From Caulobacter sp. FWC26 (lineage in GTDB: Bacteria > Pseudomonadota > Alphaproteobacteria > Caulobacterales > Caulobacteraceae): 64,000 nucleotides of DNA. The position numbers were made by a program, and so were the translations under genes. Shown here piece by piece: positions 14,376 through 18,873 of this stretch; the stretch's first letter is position 1, and every line of letters begins with the position of its first letter. The notes below the pieces were generated by a model. The model made no database searches and was not told the DNA's origin. It saw nothing but the letters and a program-made list of their open reading frames with translations. The DNA is taken from the NCBI RefSeq assembly GCF_002742645.2, contig NZ_CP033875.1, positions 868,001 to 932,000 on the forward strand. The letters run 5' to 3'.

Positions 14376-14807
14376 TTAGGCTTGGTCGCGCGACGCCTCG
14401 TCAGCCATGGCGCGGACGAGATCCAGCACTTGGCGCCGGACGCGACCACGACCGATGCGCGGGAAAACTTCGGCCAGTTCCAAGCCTTCCGGGGTCGTCA
14501 GGAACTCCTGGACCACCTTCTCGGCGCGCAGGCTGGCGTCATCGACCTCGGCGCCGCTCATCGGATCAGCCAGGCCGTCAAAGAAAAACGACACCGGGAC
14601 CTGAAGGGTCTTGGCGATCTCGTAAAGCTTGCTGGCGCTGACGCGGTTGGCGCCGCGCTCGTACTTCTGAACTTGCTGGAAGGTCAGCCCCAGGGAATCA
14701 GCCAATTGCTCCTGGCTCACGCCCAAGAGCTTCCGGCGCATGCGAACACGTCCGCCCACATGCAGGTCCACGGGGTTGGGGCGACGGCCTTCGGTTTCTT
14801 CGCTCAT
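14376..14807 (-). CDS. XRE/Cro-CI family regulator
   Basis: 143 aa from the ATG at 14807, preceded by a purine-rich GGCGGAAGAAAAG. The helix-turn-helix covers residues about 16-70 (VRMRRKLLGVSQEQLADSLG, TFQQVQKYERGANRVS), followed by a linker and a short helical C-terminal tail. The HTH plus SFFFDGL continuation is a widespread alphaproteobacterial subtype with no assigned role that I can name. It lies about 200 bp downstream of the acyl-homoserine-lactone synthase on the same strand. No overlap suggests co-translation, but it could share a transcript. Confidence 0.85.
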   Translation of the reverse strand: MSEETEGRRPNPVDLHVGGRVRMRRKLLGVSQEQLADSLGLTFQQVQKYERGANRVSASKLYEIAKTLQVPVSFFFDGLADPMSGAEVDDASLRAEKVVQEFLTTPEGLELAEVFPRIGRGRVRRQVLDLVRAMADEASRDQA

Positions 14808-15008
14808 CTTTTCTTCCGCCTCCAACGGTTGTCCCGAGAACATGGCACGACCGTTGCGTTGGTGAAAGCCAAGCGCCCCTGGCGCGGCGTTACGTCGCGA
14901 TGGTGGCGCTTCCTTCCCTGGTTCGGAAGCTAACGGTCGGAAAGACGATTCGCCGCCAACCAGAACTTGATCAGCGCCCGCTTCGCGCGAGTGCGGGCGG
15001 CCTCGACC

Positions 15009-15836
15009 TTAGGCGTTCAGAGTTCTCACCTCGGGCATGGAGGCTGAGCGGCTGTCCCAGATTCGCCGGGCTCGGCCCGTGTTGTCGTGCAGGCGATACA
15101 GGGTTTCGGCGGCCAGGACCTCGTCCCGCTCAGCGCCTGTGACCAGTTGCGGAGTCATCGCGCGCGTGACCTGGCGTTGGACCGCCGCGAGATCGCCGAA
15201 GGCCATCAAGTCCAGGCTGTCCACTTCGTATCCGACGGGCGACTCGCGGCCGATGGCCTCCAGAACACGATCTAGCAAACCCTGCGAGATCGCGATCTCC
15301 GAGCCGGCCACCACGCCATGCGGATACGGTCGGGGGATCCCGACCAGGCGCGTGTCGATCGGGGAGTTGAGGATGCCGGGATAAAGCTGCATGTCGATCA
15401 TCCCCACGAAGCGCGTCACGCCGTGGCGGAGGGCCAGTTCGAACGCGGCGGCCCAGCACTCGAACACGCGCTCGCCTCGGCCGGGACCCTTGCGCCGGCG
15501 GTAAGCCTCCGTGGTGAACAGGCGCGTGGCCTCCCACACGTCGGCGCCCTTCTTGGGCGTCTCGCCGGGCGCGATGAGATGGGCGAACTTGTCGGCCAGC
15601 ATGCAGCGATCGTCGGTCGGACGCAGGCGCAGGCCGACCTCGAGCTGCATCTCGGCGTTGAATCCGAGCAGATAGATGGCTCGATGATCGTCGTAGTCGT
15701 CGACCTCGCCGCCATCCAGCACCACAAGATCCACCCAGCCGGACTTCTCGACGCACTGCTTGCGGCGTTCCTCGTGCATCGCCCAGAGCTGGGGTCCGTA
15801 GAGGTGACGATTTTCGGACGTGATGATGTGGATCAT
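15009..15836 (-). CDS. LuxI-type acyl-homoserine-lactone synthase
   Basis: 275 aa. Autoinducer-synthase features: N-terminal MHEERRKQCVEKSGW (conserved Arg and Trp of the SAM/acyl-ACP pocket), the acidic DDYDDHRAIYLL, EVGLRLRPT and VWEATRL (the W-E-x-x-R strand). The middle (FECWAAAFELALRHGVTRFVGM) matches the acyl-chain side. It makes an N-acyl-L-homoserine lactone from SAM and an acyl carrier. Typical LuxI proteins are about 190-220 aa; this one has roughly 60-75 extra C-terminal residues of unknown role. A LuxR-type gene at 16298 and an 18-bp palindrome 59 bp upstream complete a quorum-sensing unit. The acyl chain cannot be predicted. Confidence 0.82.
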   Translation of the reverse strand: MIHIITSENRHLYGPQLWAMHEERRKQCVEKSGWVDLVVLDGGEVDDYDDHRAIYLLGFNAEMQLEVGLRLRPTDDRCMLADKFAHLIAPGETPKKGADVWEATRLFTTEAYRRRKGPGRGERVFECWAAAFELALRHGVTRFVGMIDMQLYPGILNSPIDTRLVGIPRPYPHGVVAGSEIAISQGLLDRVLEAIGRESPVGYEVDSLDLMAFGDLAAVQRQVTRAMTPQLVTGAERDEVLAAETLYRLHDNTGRARRIWDSRSASMPEVRTLNA

Positions 15837-15894
15837 GGCCTGCCCCAGAGCTGTGAACTGGAGGCATTAAGGCCCGGCGGGGCCCCGGCCGCCG

Positions 15895-15912
15895 ATAGGC
15901 CAAACGGCCTAT
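15895..15912. promoter_or_regulatory. lux-box-like palindrome upstream of luxI
   Basis: ATAGGCC-AAAC-GGCCTAT is a perfect 7-4-7 inverted repeat. It is 59 bp upstream of the LuxI start (15836) and 58 bp upstream of the divergent DUF962 start (15970). Size and position fit a LuxR-family binding site. The sequence differs from the Vibrio lux box, as is usual in alphaproteobacteria. Confidence 0.55.
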
Positions 15913-15969
15913 GCGCCCGAACGTGCGAGGCGCTTGCCATGGATCCGGGGAGGGCGCAGCCTAGCCGTT

Positions 15970-16296
15970 ATGGACAGCGCCCCCTCCACCCGCGTCGCCG
16001 AGCGCCACCAGAGCTTTGCGGCGTTCTATCCGTTCTACATTTCCGAGCACGCCCATCCTGTCAGCCGACGCCTGCACGTGGTGGGTACGAGTCTGGTGAT
16101 CGTCTTCTTGGTTCTGGGATTGGGGCTGGATTGGCGCTTCTTCGTCGCTGCGCCGCTGACCGGCTACGGCTTCGCCTGGGTCGGTCACTTCGTGTTCGAA
16201 AAGAACCGTCCGGCGACCTTCAAGTATCCGGTCTACAGCTTGATGGGCGATTTCCGGCTTTGGTTCGAGACTGTGACTGGGCGACGCAAGTTCTAA
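15970..16296 (+). CDS. DUF962 / Mpo1-like membrane protein
   Basis: 108 aa. The chain has the family opening FAAFYPFYISEHAHPVSRRL, two central hydrophobic helices (VGTSLVIVFLVLGLGL and FFVAAPLTGYGFAWVGHFVF) and the conserved HFVFEKNRPATFKYP motif. The His residues in EHAHP, RRLH and GHF match the Fe-binding histidines of yeast Mpo1, a 2-hydroxy fatty acid dioxygenase. Bacterial homologues are common but mostly uncharacterised. The gene sits between luxI and luxR on the opposite strand, ends one base before the luxR stop, and may share the lux-box region with luxI. Confidence 0.82.
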   Translation: MDSAPSTRVAERHQSFAAFYPFYISEHAHPVSRRLHVVGTSLVIVFLVLGLGLDWRFFVAAPLTGYGFAWVGHFVFEKNRPATFKYPVYSLMGDFRLWFETVTGRRKF

Positions 16297-16297
16297 T

Positions 16298-17026
16298 CTA
16301 GAGCTTGCTGAACAAGCCCAGTTCACCGGCCTTCAGCACCGCTTCCTGGCGCTTGACGACGCCCAGGCGCTTCTTGGCCGCCTCGACATGGTGATGCACC
16401 GTTCGGGGCGACAGCTCGAGGATGGCGCCGATCTCCCAGTCGGTCTTGCCGCGACTGGCCCAGTAGAGGCATTGGGCCTGCCGCTCGGAGATGACGCCGT
16501 AGTCTGGATTGTCGTCCTGCAGTTCCCAGTGCTTGAGCATGATGGTGCCGAACACGGTGGCGAGGCTTTCGATCACGGCGCGCGCGGCCGGATCGGTGTC
16601 CGGGGCCTCCGTCGACATCCGTATCAGCACCTCCTGGCCGGCGGGCCCGAAGACCCGGACGACATAGCCGTCGTTCATGCCCAGGTCCGAGGCCTCGCCC
16701 CACATCGATTGTGCACGACTGTCGCCGATGGGCTTGGCGTCCGTCCAGGCGAAGGAGCGCGGCGAGCGCAGCAGCAGCTTCACGCAGGGATCATGGACGA
16801 CGTAGCGCTGGCCCCAATAGCGCTGGTCCCAGACCTCGAAGTCCTGGCGGCTCAGCGTGGGCGGTTCCTTGCCGTAGTGCTCGGCGTTGACCAGCGTGGC
16901 GCAGAACTTGTCATACCCGAAGGCGGCGATGGCTTGCGCGAACGCGATCTCAACATCTTCCGCCGTGCGCAGATGTGGGGCCTGGCTCAAGAACGCCCAA
17001 GCCTGTTGTTCCGCCGTCGTCAGCAC
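16298..17026 (-). CDS. LuxR-type autoinducer-binding transcriptional regulator
   Basis: 242 aa. A GTG start at 17026 follows CGGAG. The N-terminal autoinducer-binding domain carries the conserved pocket residues of the TraR/LuxR group: W-x3-Y-x7-DP in WGQRYVVHDP, Trp in SFAW and Gly in LGMNDGY. The C-terminal GerE helix-turn-helix (about 180-240) reads ISERQAQCLYWASRGKT, then EIGAILELSPRTVHHHVEAA. This is a true acyl-homoserine-lactone receptor rather than a generic HTH-LuxR protein. It is separated from luxI by the opposite-strand DUF962 gene and probably binds the palindrome at 15895. Confidence 0.9.
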   Translation of the reverse strand: MLTTAEQQAWAFLSQAPHLRTAEDVEIAFAQAIAAFGYDKFCATLVNAEHYGKEPPTLSRQDFEVWDQRYWGQRYVVHDPCVKLLLRSPRSFAWTDAKPIGDSRAQSMWGEASDLGMNDGYVVRVFGPAGQEVLIRMSTEAPDTDPAARAVIESLATVFGTIMLKHWELQDDNPDYGVISERQAQCLYWASRGKTDWEIGAILELSPRTVHHHVEAAKKRLGVVKRQEAVLKAGELGLFSKL

Positions 17027-17101: not shown

Positions 17102-17152
17102 CTAGAGCGTGACGCCGAAAGTGGGAGCCGGCTTCGGCACGGGTCACGCTCT
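17102..17152. repeat. Intergenic palindrome family D, element 1
   Basis: AGAGCGTGAC (17104-17113) and GTCACGCTCT (17143-17152) enclose a nested GCCGAA/TTCGGC pair. It is the type of long imperfect palindrome scattered in alphaproteobacterial genomes, located upstream of luxR and downstream of the kinase-like gene. Confidence 0.65.
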
Positions 17153-17163
17153 GGTGTTTACTC

Positions 17164-17214
17164 TAGAGCCTTGTTATCGCGTCAAACGATTCCGTTTTGA
17201 CGCGCAAGGCTCTA
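17164..17214. repeat. Intergenic palindrome family D, element 2 (carries GANTC)
   Basis: The outer arms TAGAGCCTTG (17164-17173) and CAAGGCTCTA (17205-17214) enclose inner arms CGCGTCAAA and TTTGACGCG. A GATTC (CcrM-type site) lies near the tip. The right outer arm includes the TAG stop codon of the kinase-like gene. It may also act as a 3'-end hairpin for that gene. Confidence 0.65.
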
Positions 17215-18735
17215 CGCGGCCGCTTCGGCGTCTTCGTCCGCGAGCAGAGCGTTCAGCACCATGGCGAGGCGCTCGGGCTTGATCGGTTTCTCGACCACGT
17301 CCTGCATGCCCGCAGCGAGGTAGGTCTGCACGTCGGCCGGGTCGGCGTTGGCGGTGAGGGCCACGATCGGGGCCGAGCCGCACCGTCCTCCCAACTCGCG
17401 GATCGCGCGCGTCGCCGCGACGCCGTCCATGCGTGGCATCTTGATGTCCATCAGGATCAGGTCGTAGCGACCGCCCTTGGCCATCTCCACGGCCTCCAGG
17501 CCATCGACGGCCTGTTCGGAGGTGCAGTCGAACATGTCGCAAAGCGCTTCGGCGACCATCCGGTTCGTCGCGTTGTCGTCGACGATGAGAATGTGCGCCG
17601 CGCGTCCGCCTGCTGTTTCGGGCGCGTCTTGCGCGGCCGCCTCGGCGGCGGCGGCTTCCAGGGACAGACTGAAGCCGACCGTAAGACCCGCCCCCCGATT
17701 GGCTTCGGCGACCAGTTGACCGCCCATGGCGCCGATGACCTTCCGGGCTAGCGCCATGCCTACGCCCAACGCCATTTCGCTACGGTCCTGCGCGCCGACC
17801 TCGCCCAAGGGATCGCTGACGCGGGCCAGACGGTCTTCGGCTAGTCCGCCGGCGTTGTCGCGCAACTGGCAGTCCAGCGTGATCCGTTCGCCTTCGCCCC
17901 GCCCGGTGAGGCGAACTTCGGTCATGCCGCGCCCGGCCGATAGCGCATTCTCGATGAGGATGTCGATGACCTGAAGTAGGCGCTCGCCGTCCACCTGGAC
18001 GCCGCACTCGGGTTCGCCGTCGTAGGACACCAGCAGGGTCGAGCCGCCCTCCTGCGCCCGATGGGCCCAGCGCGCTTCGACCGCGTCGGCTAGATCGCGG
18101 AGACGGGTCGGGTTGGAGGACAGGGATAGTCCGCCATGGACCGAACGATGCAGATCCACCGCGCGGCCGACCGTCGCGCTCATGTCGCGGCTGGTGTCGC
18201 CGATGGCGCGCACGAAGGCTGCGGCGTCGGGTGTCAGGCGTTGTTGCTCAAGGCGCTCGGTGATTGCCAGCACGCCGTCCAGATGGGCGCCAATATCGAC
18301 AGCCATGCGCTCCACCATCGCCATGGCGTCGTTGGCCTCGCGCTGGCGCCGGCGATGCGATGTCAGGAGTGAGCCCAGTCCGCCGACGCCCGCGTAGCGC
18401 CCGTCGGCGTCGACGGCGACATAGGCGGTGCGAAAGATCGGCGTCGGGCTGTCGGCAAGGGAATTTACGAACGCGTCGGCGTTGGTGTCGATCAGAACCT
18501 TGCGCGGTGCGGTGTCCATGATCTCGGCGATGGGCCGCTCGGCGAGATCGGCGCCAGCCACGCGCATCATGCCCTGCAGAACGTCCCGATAAACGAGGCC
18601 CACGGGCATGTCGTTTTCGACCACGGGCAGCGCGGCGAGCGTCGGATCGGCGTCGAACATCGCAGCCACGGCCGCGCTCGGCGTCGCCGATGCGATCGGC
18701 GCGACAGGATCGATCAGACGGGAAAGCGTTTCCAT
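17212..18735 (-). CDS. CBS-like plus histidine-kinase-like plus receiver hybrid lacking the phospho-acceptor His
   Basis: 507 aa from the ATG at 18735 (a TTG five codons earlier is the alternative). Residues about 1-125 resemble a paired CBS sensor (LPVVENDMPVGLVYRD, YVAVDADGRYAGVGGL). The dimerisation helix AVDIGAHLDGVLAITERL aligns with a kinase H-box, but Val146 stands where the phospho-acceptor His should be. The ATPase domain keeps N-box (LIENAL), G1-like DNAGG and G2 GVGMALARK. A complete receiver follows (IVDDN, LMDIKMPRMDG, LTAN, EKPIKP). It probably acts as a pseudokinase or phosphatase/scaffold. It is next to luxR on the same strand. Confidence 0.75.
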   Translation of the reverse strand: METLSRLIDPVAPIASATPSAAVAAMFDADPTLAALPVVENDMPVGLVYRDVLQGMMRVAGADLAERPIAEIMDTAPRKVLIDTNADAFVNSLADSPTPIFRTAYVAVDADGRYAGVGGLGSLLTSHRRRQREANDAMAMVERMAVDIGAHLDGVLAITERLEQQRLTPDAAAFVRAIGDTSRDMSATVGRAVDLHRSVHGGLSLSSNPTRLRDLADAVEARWAHRAQEGGSTLLVSYDGEPECGVQVDGERLLQVIDILIENALSAGRGMTEVRLTGRGEGERITLDCQLRDNAGGLAEDRLARVSDPLGEVGAQDRSEMALGVGMALARKVIGAMGGQLVAEANRGAGLTVGFSLSLEAAAAEAAAQDAPETAGGRAAHILIVDDNATNRMVAEALCDMFDCTSEQAVDGLEAVEMAKGGRYDLILMDIKMPRMDGVAATRAIRELGGRCGSAPIVALTANADPADVQTYLAAGMQDVVEKPIKPERLAMVLNALLADEDAEAAA

Positions 18736-18873
18736 GCGGCGCTTCGTCAACGGCTCGGGGCCGCCAACTTGCCCCGTGCGCCCTTGCGGAGTCGTTAAGG
18801 TGACAACGCACGGACCTTAGGAATCGGGCCTGCCGGGCCTTATCGGTCCCTTAAGGGGGGCGACCAAGCAAAC

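Follow-up and report, generated by a model that had tools for sequence, protein, structure and literature searches.

Caulobacter is a model for bacterial cell-cycle control and, to our knowledge, is not usually regarded as an organism that communicates through acyl-homoserine lactones (AHLs). Does it carry a working LuxI/LuxR quorum-sensing circuit, and if so, through which DNA site would such a circuit act and to what end? The question is raised by a 64,000-nucleotide stretch of the Caulobacter sp. FWC26 genome (hereafter the window), in which a preliminary description had placed a complete LuxI/LuxR pair and a candidate lux box within what it took to be a Caulobacter-like genome. Both the pair and the assignment of the host were borne out here. 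In our reading, to which we give a probability of roughly 0.87, the locus encodes a working two-gene AHL circuit in which LuxR, together with the product of LuxI, would bind the box and activate luxI.

The two proteins and the luxI promoter

The luxI gene (15009-15836, minus strand) encodes a predicted AHL synthase of 275 amino acids that scores 43.6 bits against PF00765 (curated cut-off 24), and luxR (16298-17026, minus strand) a transcription factor of 242 amino acids that exceeds the cut-offs of both PF03472 (67.6 bits) and PF00196 (48 bits), with an autoinducer-binding domain and a GerE helix-turn-helix. Among the genes found in the 4.87 Mb host genome, they are the only ones assigned to PF00765 and PF03472, respectively; a weak second LuxI match (C3:2823271, 29% identity) contains a stop and was set aside. 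The residues which we take to form the LuxI active site (R, W, E-x-D-x-x-D, R, E and R) are all kept in the window protein, and R25, W34, E44, D46, D49, R70, E102 and R105 are invariant in 15 aligned orthologues, namely the window and 14 of the 19 related loci described below. At a further often-conserved position the window has T104, which is either serine or threonine among the orthologues.

As to the signal, the solved chains that best matched LuxI by sequence (phmmer) were RpaI (E = 1.7e-17) and BjaI (8.9e-16). A fold search (Foldseek) with a weak structure model of LuxI ranked BjaI, RpaI and MesI first, with 25-28% identity in the BjaI and RpaI fold alignments; such a search partly tracks sequence likeness, and LuxI was placed by its nearest matches rather than by a tree that includes acyl carrier protein (ACP)-type enzymes. 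By analogy with these nearest relatives, the acyl donor is probably acyl-coenzyme A (acyl-CoA); a CoA-using LuxI clade and an ACP-helix motif are described in PMC4234381. Compared with BjaI and RpaI (213-221 residues), LuxI extends C-terminally by about 60 amino acids, a stretch for which Pfam gave no match and which the poor model does not allow to be judged from structure.

In LuxR, the pocket residues W66, Y70, D79, P80, W94 and G120, whose identity we take from work on TraR and RhlR, are invariant in 12 aligned orthologues (the window and 11 related loci), with positions mapped through an alignment with RhlR. Mapped in the same way, eight of the nine residues that we presume to be conserved across the family (W57, Y61, D70, P71, W85, G113, E178, L182 and G188 in TraR numbering) are kept and are likewise invariant in the 12. 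Solved chains matching LuxR, 16 in number, include RhlR, CviR, LasR, TraR, a quorum-sensing control repressor and SdiA.

Upstream of luxI, ATAGGCCAAACGGCCTAT at 15895-15912 forms the perfect 7-4-7 palindrome (ATAGGCC-N4-GGCCTAT) that had been pointed out previously, with coordinates and symmetry confirmed, and is separated from the luxI ATG by a gap of 58 nt. Because a perfect dyad of this kind would, by arithmetic, arise by chance in the 133-bp gap with a probability of about 0.7% at that spacing, and with a higher one over all spacings, the palindrome taken alone is weak evidence and not decisive; it is the comparison across loci that makes the case strong. On the luxI strand the box is conserved as TAGGCCGTTTGGCCTATCG. 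With at most two mismatches it precedes luxI not only in the window but also in all 19 related loci (17 titled Caulobacter), which encode LuxI proteins of 78-95% identity and the 5′ flanks of which have diverged; relative to ATAGGCCGTTTGGCCTAT, the boxes of L034, L036, L037, L038 and L050 differ by one or two mismatches. Among 75 Caulobacter genomes, a box with no more than one mismatch is found once in each of the 31 that carry the LuxI orthologue, always 53-67 nt from luxI, and once elsewhere, in G257, an 87% complete genome in which the box-like site stands without luxI; the same pattern read backwards, used as a control, gave three matches in two of the 75 genomes. An information profile over 30 loci reaches about 2 bits at most positions of the box and extends into a CG past the dyad, compared with about 0.3 bit in the 5′ flank. 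These three comparisons use overlapping sets of loci and genomes, and they support the earlier suggestion that the palindrome is a likely lux box.

The box also stands at a fixed place in what appears to be the luxI promoter. Exactly 25 nt past it, TA is found in 30 of 30 loci and the full TAAT or TAGT in 28 of them; in the window this presumed -10 element is the TAAT at 15866-15869 (minus strand). Centre to centre, the box and the -10-like hexamer are 35-36 nt apart, and no separate -35 element is evident. Like a classical lux box, which is a dyad of 18-20 bp, the site stands before luxI at the -35 region, relative to a presumed transcription start. Further downstream, the presumed core of the luxI ribosome-binding site is the GGGG at 15843-15846 (minus strand), a run that precedes the luxI start in 30 leaders. 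In a single clade (L042-L049), an inverted repeat with arms of 6-8 (for example GGCTGTCC...GGACAGCC) overlaps this presumed ribosome-binding region and could form an RNA hairpin.

In the mechanism that we propose, LuxI would make an AHL, probably from acyl-CoA, which would accumulate with cell number and bind LuxR; a LuxR dimer would then bind the single strong box and activate luxI, closing an autoinduction loop. Activation in a class-II manner appears most likely, since the box stands where a -35 element would be expected, at the distance from the -10 centre given above. Sited there, the box could just as well serve to block RNA polymerase as to recruit it, and LuxR might instead repress luxI until relieved by the signal, as EsaR does. 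We consider repression unlikely: the box-to--10 geometry without an evident -35 element fits class-II activators, and none of the 16 solved chains matching LuxR is named EsaR, although this does not decide the matter. From this layout we infer activation rather than repression, and likewise the transcription start.

To which regulator, and to which gene, does the box belong? An Mpo1-like (DUF962) gene (15970-16296, plus strand; PF06127) lies between luxR and luxI and is divergent from them, and it had been suggested that the box might serve this gene as well. This was not supported, as 10 of the 19 loci that keep the box showed no DUF962 gene next to luxI, and five of 10 luxI-less loci retain DUF962 without an intact box; we regard it as a neighbour outside the module. 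On the other side, a gene for an XRE regulator (14376-14807, minus strand; HTH_3) lies directly downstream of luxI and adjoins it in 19 of 19 related loci, which makes the XRE protein a candidate for binding the palindrome itself, and the palindrome might also fold into an RNA hairpin with a 7-bp stem and a 4-nt loop. That the site serves another regulator or a hairpin is nevertheless very improbable. Ten genomes without a LuxI orthologue retain XRE at 87-94% identity, but not the box; and where the arms vary, it is the initial two bases of the 5′ arm that change, with no compensation in the 3′ arm, and conservation continues into the CG past the dyad, a pattern unlike that of a stem under selection. 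Because the box is gone or decayed where both luxI and luxR have been lost though XRE remains, it belongs with LuxR, and tracks luxI and luxR, neither DUF962 nor XRE.

Several observations weigh against the reading of a working, LuxR-activated circuit. In LuxI, C28 stands at an often-conserved position where BjaI has phenylalanine and RpaI tyrosine, and the structure model is poor (mean predicted local distance difference test score 52, from a shallow alignment of 15 rows). In LuxR, Q183 replaces the conserved E178 of TraR and RhlR, a numbering that we take as given. Part of the sequence from the box to the -10 element is conserved too, and the box is therefore not the sole constrained run there. 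Classical lux boxes end in CTGT...ACAG, a pattern with no match in the window, and the half-sites of the box differ from it; the site would thus work like a lux box and yet belong to another sequence class. Finally, the exact box occurs once in the host genome, where 16 sites with at most two mismatches compare with 14 for the backward control, and no regulon is indicated.

Distribution and history in Caulobacter

Orthologues of LuxI were identified in 31 of the 75 Caulobacter genomes (57% identity in the lowest, G215, and at least 74% in all others), and these very genomes also carry the LuxR orthologue (at least 79% identity across the region aligned). One further genome, G245, has at the start of contig C1 a stretch of 29 residues that matches the N-terminus of LuxI with 72% identity, and was counted as negative. 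According to the preliminary description, AHL signalling is not a classical trait of Caulobacter. With 31 genomes carrying it, the pair is not odd for the genus; the odd finding is that the control Caulobacter vibrioides showed neither family: among 14 control genomes that include this species, and that we assume to be identical in each profile search, PF00765 was found in none and PF03472 in E. coli only. The Caulobacter LuxI/LuxR is an ordinary pair of a known kind.

The two genes need not be linked. In seven of the 31 genomes (G116, G164, G173, G191, G215, G242 and G284) luxR and luxI lie far apart, with both genes and the box kept; for G191 and G242 this is judged from the at least 3.6 kb of other sequence that follows luxR, and G233, in which luxR stands at a contig end that may be a contig break only, was excluded from this count. 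In the most divergent of them, G215, luxI shows only 55-57% identity, no longer has the GGEV stretch that contains the catalytic glutamate and carries glycine in place of R105, while the box is intact and an intact luxR lies 476 kb from luxI. It is possible that G215 represents a receptor-only intermediate. Such decay seems to occur, then, and the window locus might similarly be a decaying relic from which no signal is made; with both frames intact and all catalytic positions kept, this has very little to recommend it, and a working pair remains the reading that we pursue.

To place presence and absence in a historical context, we used a midpoint-rooted tree of flanking genes from 37 genomes or loci, of which 27 have the pair and 10 lack it, with eight rows filled in less than half of the kept columns; L040, L041 and L050 appeared to duplicate G126, G233 and G116, respectively, and were omitted from the trees. 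At least five changes of state for the pair are required on this tree (bootstrap range 5-6), and wherever one of the two orthologues is found the other is found too, both in the rows of the tree and in the 75 genomes. Of the 44 genomes that lack the orthologue, 10 were studied at the luxI-less site; 21 of the 44 were searched with XRE, of which these 10 gave the matches of 87-94% identity and the other 11 gave matches of 57-71%, at sites outside the locus study.

Two of the luxI-less loci, L186 and L187, preserve direct traces of the pair. Between the kinase gene and XRE, at a locus that is well conserved in other respects, they retain a broken 3′ end of luxR, about 20 codons long, and a decayed box at the expected place. 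This shows loss in the L186/L187 lineage, and we take it that the common ancestor of Caulobacter had the pair, with losses elsewhere as well. A different history, in which the pair was acquired several times by horizontal transfer into the same spot, would account for its patchy presence and for the multiple changes on the tree, as well as for the eight of 10 luxI-less loci in which no remnant was found; transfer of quorum-sensing genes has also been suggested for the alphaproteobacterial CaP clade (PMC10008586). Repeated transfer is unlikely, however: a comparison by eye revealed no supported disagreement of the LuxI and LuxR trees with the flanking-gene tree, although many forks are poorly supported and few of those in the LuxR tree well; luxR and luxI flank DUF962, and two spots rather than one would have been hit; and the remnants in L186 and L187 record loss in that lineage.

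The lineage with the remnants appears to match the model species. The PopZ protein of the L187 genome (G077) is identical to solved chain 6xry at all 133 residues that precede the chain's own tail, and that of the L186 genome (G130) differs from 6xry at three positions; 6xry is the PopZ of C. crescentus. Most likely, a lineage matching the model species lost the pair and was left with the end of luxR and a dead box. Close relatives that differ in the pair thereby provide a natural experiment.

Neighbouring genes and a possible output

What would the circuit control? Of the 16 sites with at most two mismatches in the host genome, 15 were read, and 14 of these fall within predicted coding open reading frames (ORFs), the remaining one being the luxI box itself; the sole site with one mismatch (C3:4276367) is within a coding sequence judged by eye to be SDR-like. 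As a route to the regulon, box search therefore yielded luxI only, with the weaker sites indistinguishable from chance. The regulon, which the preliminary description had left open, is narrowed to this extent, as no second strong box was seen in the genome. Either weaker LuxR sites are invisible to this search, or the output is indirect.

An indirect output draws attention to XRE, which is associated with the pair as an unproven part. It has 10 paralogues in the host genome, one of which, 65% identical, adjoins a gene recognised by eye as an S-adenosylmethionine (SAM) synthetase. Since this is the neighbourhood that marks praR, we regard the window XRE as a member of the wider family that includes PraR. 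A SAM synthetase neighbour marks praR and PraR of Methylobacterium fujisawaense is a quorum-sensing output through MmaP (PMC10790750), and PraR of Rhizobium leguminosarum is one through CinS (PMC4149787). A PraR-like XRE lies within about 1.5 kb of 10 of 30 LuxI loci, compared with 0.16 expected (1.52 hits per Mb); these are the best 30 of 85 matches and mutually related, and the background comprises 21 chosen genomes of one genus. The gap between luxI and XRE is of variable length across 20 loci, with little conserved except near XRE.

XRE as the dedicated output of the pair was rejected and is retained as a lead only, in view of its 10 paralogues and of its own upstream elements. The latter, GCGACGTAACGCCGCG and ACAACCGTTGG, are conserved upstream of XRE at about 14811-14910 (minus strand), and each is found in eight of the 10 luxI-less loci; because they are kept without luxI, expression of XRE needs no luxI, as far as can be read from the DNA.

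A second type of LuxI was found in six Caulobacter genomes (G221, G224, G230, G239, G278 and G300; loci L213-L218). In all six, the order is luxR, luxI, a small ORF and a PraR-like XRE gene, with the ORF encoding 70-71 amino acids, overlapping the luxI stop by 4 nt and without a Pfam match; a dyad of ATRGGG-N6-CCCCAT (N7 in L217) precedes luxI by 69-72 nt, again in six of six. Across 20 loci of the window type, the gap between luxI and XRE showed no conserved small ORF and no small antirepressor gene, such as those for CinS or MmaP, directly behind luxI.

It is conceivable, if doubtful, that the pair forms a closed feedback module whose one DNA target in the genome is the luxI promoter, and that its output runs through the PraR-like XRE, with the C-terminal stretch of LuxI possibly acting as the CinS and MmaP antirepressors do. 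C. crescentus-like strains, having kept XRE and lost the circuit, would then carry a regulator permanently uncoupled from cell number.

Upstream of luxR, a hybrid histidine kinase/receiver gene (17212-18750, minus strand; HATPase_c and Response_reg) is a conserved neighbour that adjoins luxR in 17 of 19 related loci, the remaining two having no luxR within the stretch examined. Pfam identified HATPase_c and a receiver in its product and found no phospho-acceptor domain. The gap between luxR and the kinase gene (17102-17214) holds two short inverted-repeat-like elements, each pattern occurring once in the window, which do not align in the closest relative, L032. Control of the pair by CtrA was rejected: none of the 16 loci scanned, out of the 19, had the CtrA motif, which we take to be TTAA-N7-TTAA, with at most one mismatch within 200 nt before luxR or 300 nt before luxI, and the one site in the window, at 18840, is not near luxI or luxR.

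Relation to known systems

The titles and abstract starts listed in searches of the open literature, a coverage that leaves out most subscription journals, gave no description of this Caulobacter pair. As far as these searches reach, the new elements are the spread of the pair across the genus, the single-site box with a promoter at fixed spacing, the repeated absence of both genes together, with a molecular remnant, and a PraR-like gene that recurs as a neighbour. The single conserved box could readily be used as a reporter, and the PraR-like neighbour hints at where the output may lie.

Among characterised systems, the CoA-dependent BjaI/BjaR of Bradyrhizobium and RpaI/RpaR of Rhodopseudomonas are the closest, providing the best solved matches to LuxI both by sequence and with the weak model. 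For rpaI, PMC10470506 cites an inverted repeat bound by the LuxR homologue, an arrangement to which the one proposed for the window box would correspond. The window LuxI differs from both synthases in its identity of 25-28% in the fold alignments and in being longer C-terminally by about 60 amino acids.

CinR-CinI-CinS/PraR of Rhizobium leguminosarum and MmaR-MmaI-MmaP/PraR of Methylobacterium fujisawaense likewise combine a LuxR/LuxI pair with a PraR-like XRE. In contrast to these, the window type shows no conserved small ORF, its XRE adjoins luxI, has its own elements and is kept without luxI, and the SAM synthetase-linked XRE is a separate paralogue; PraR, CinS and MmaP are likened here by description only. 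Nearer at hand, the second Caulobacter type shares 33-35% identity in LuxI and 26-30% in LuxR with the window type. It differs in the bases of its box, in the genomes that carry it and in the small ORF between luxI and XRE, whereas both types have a dyad before luxI.

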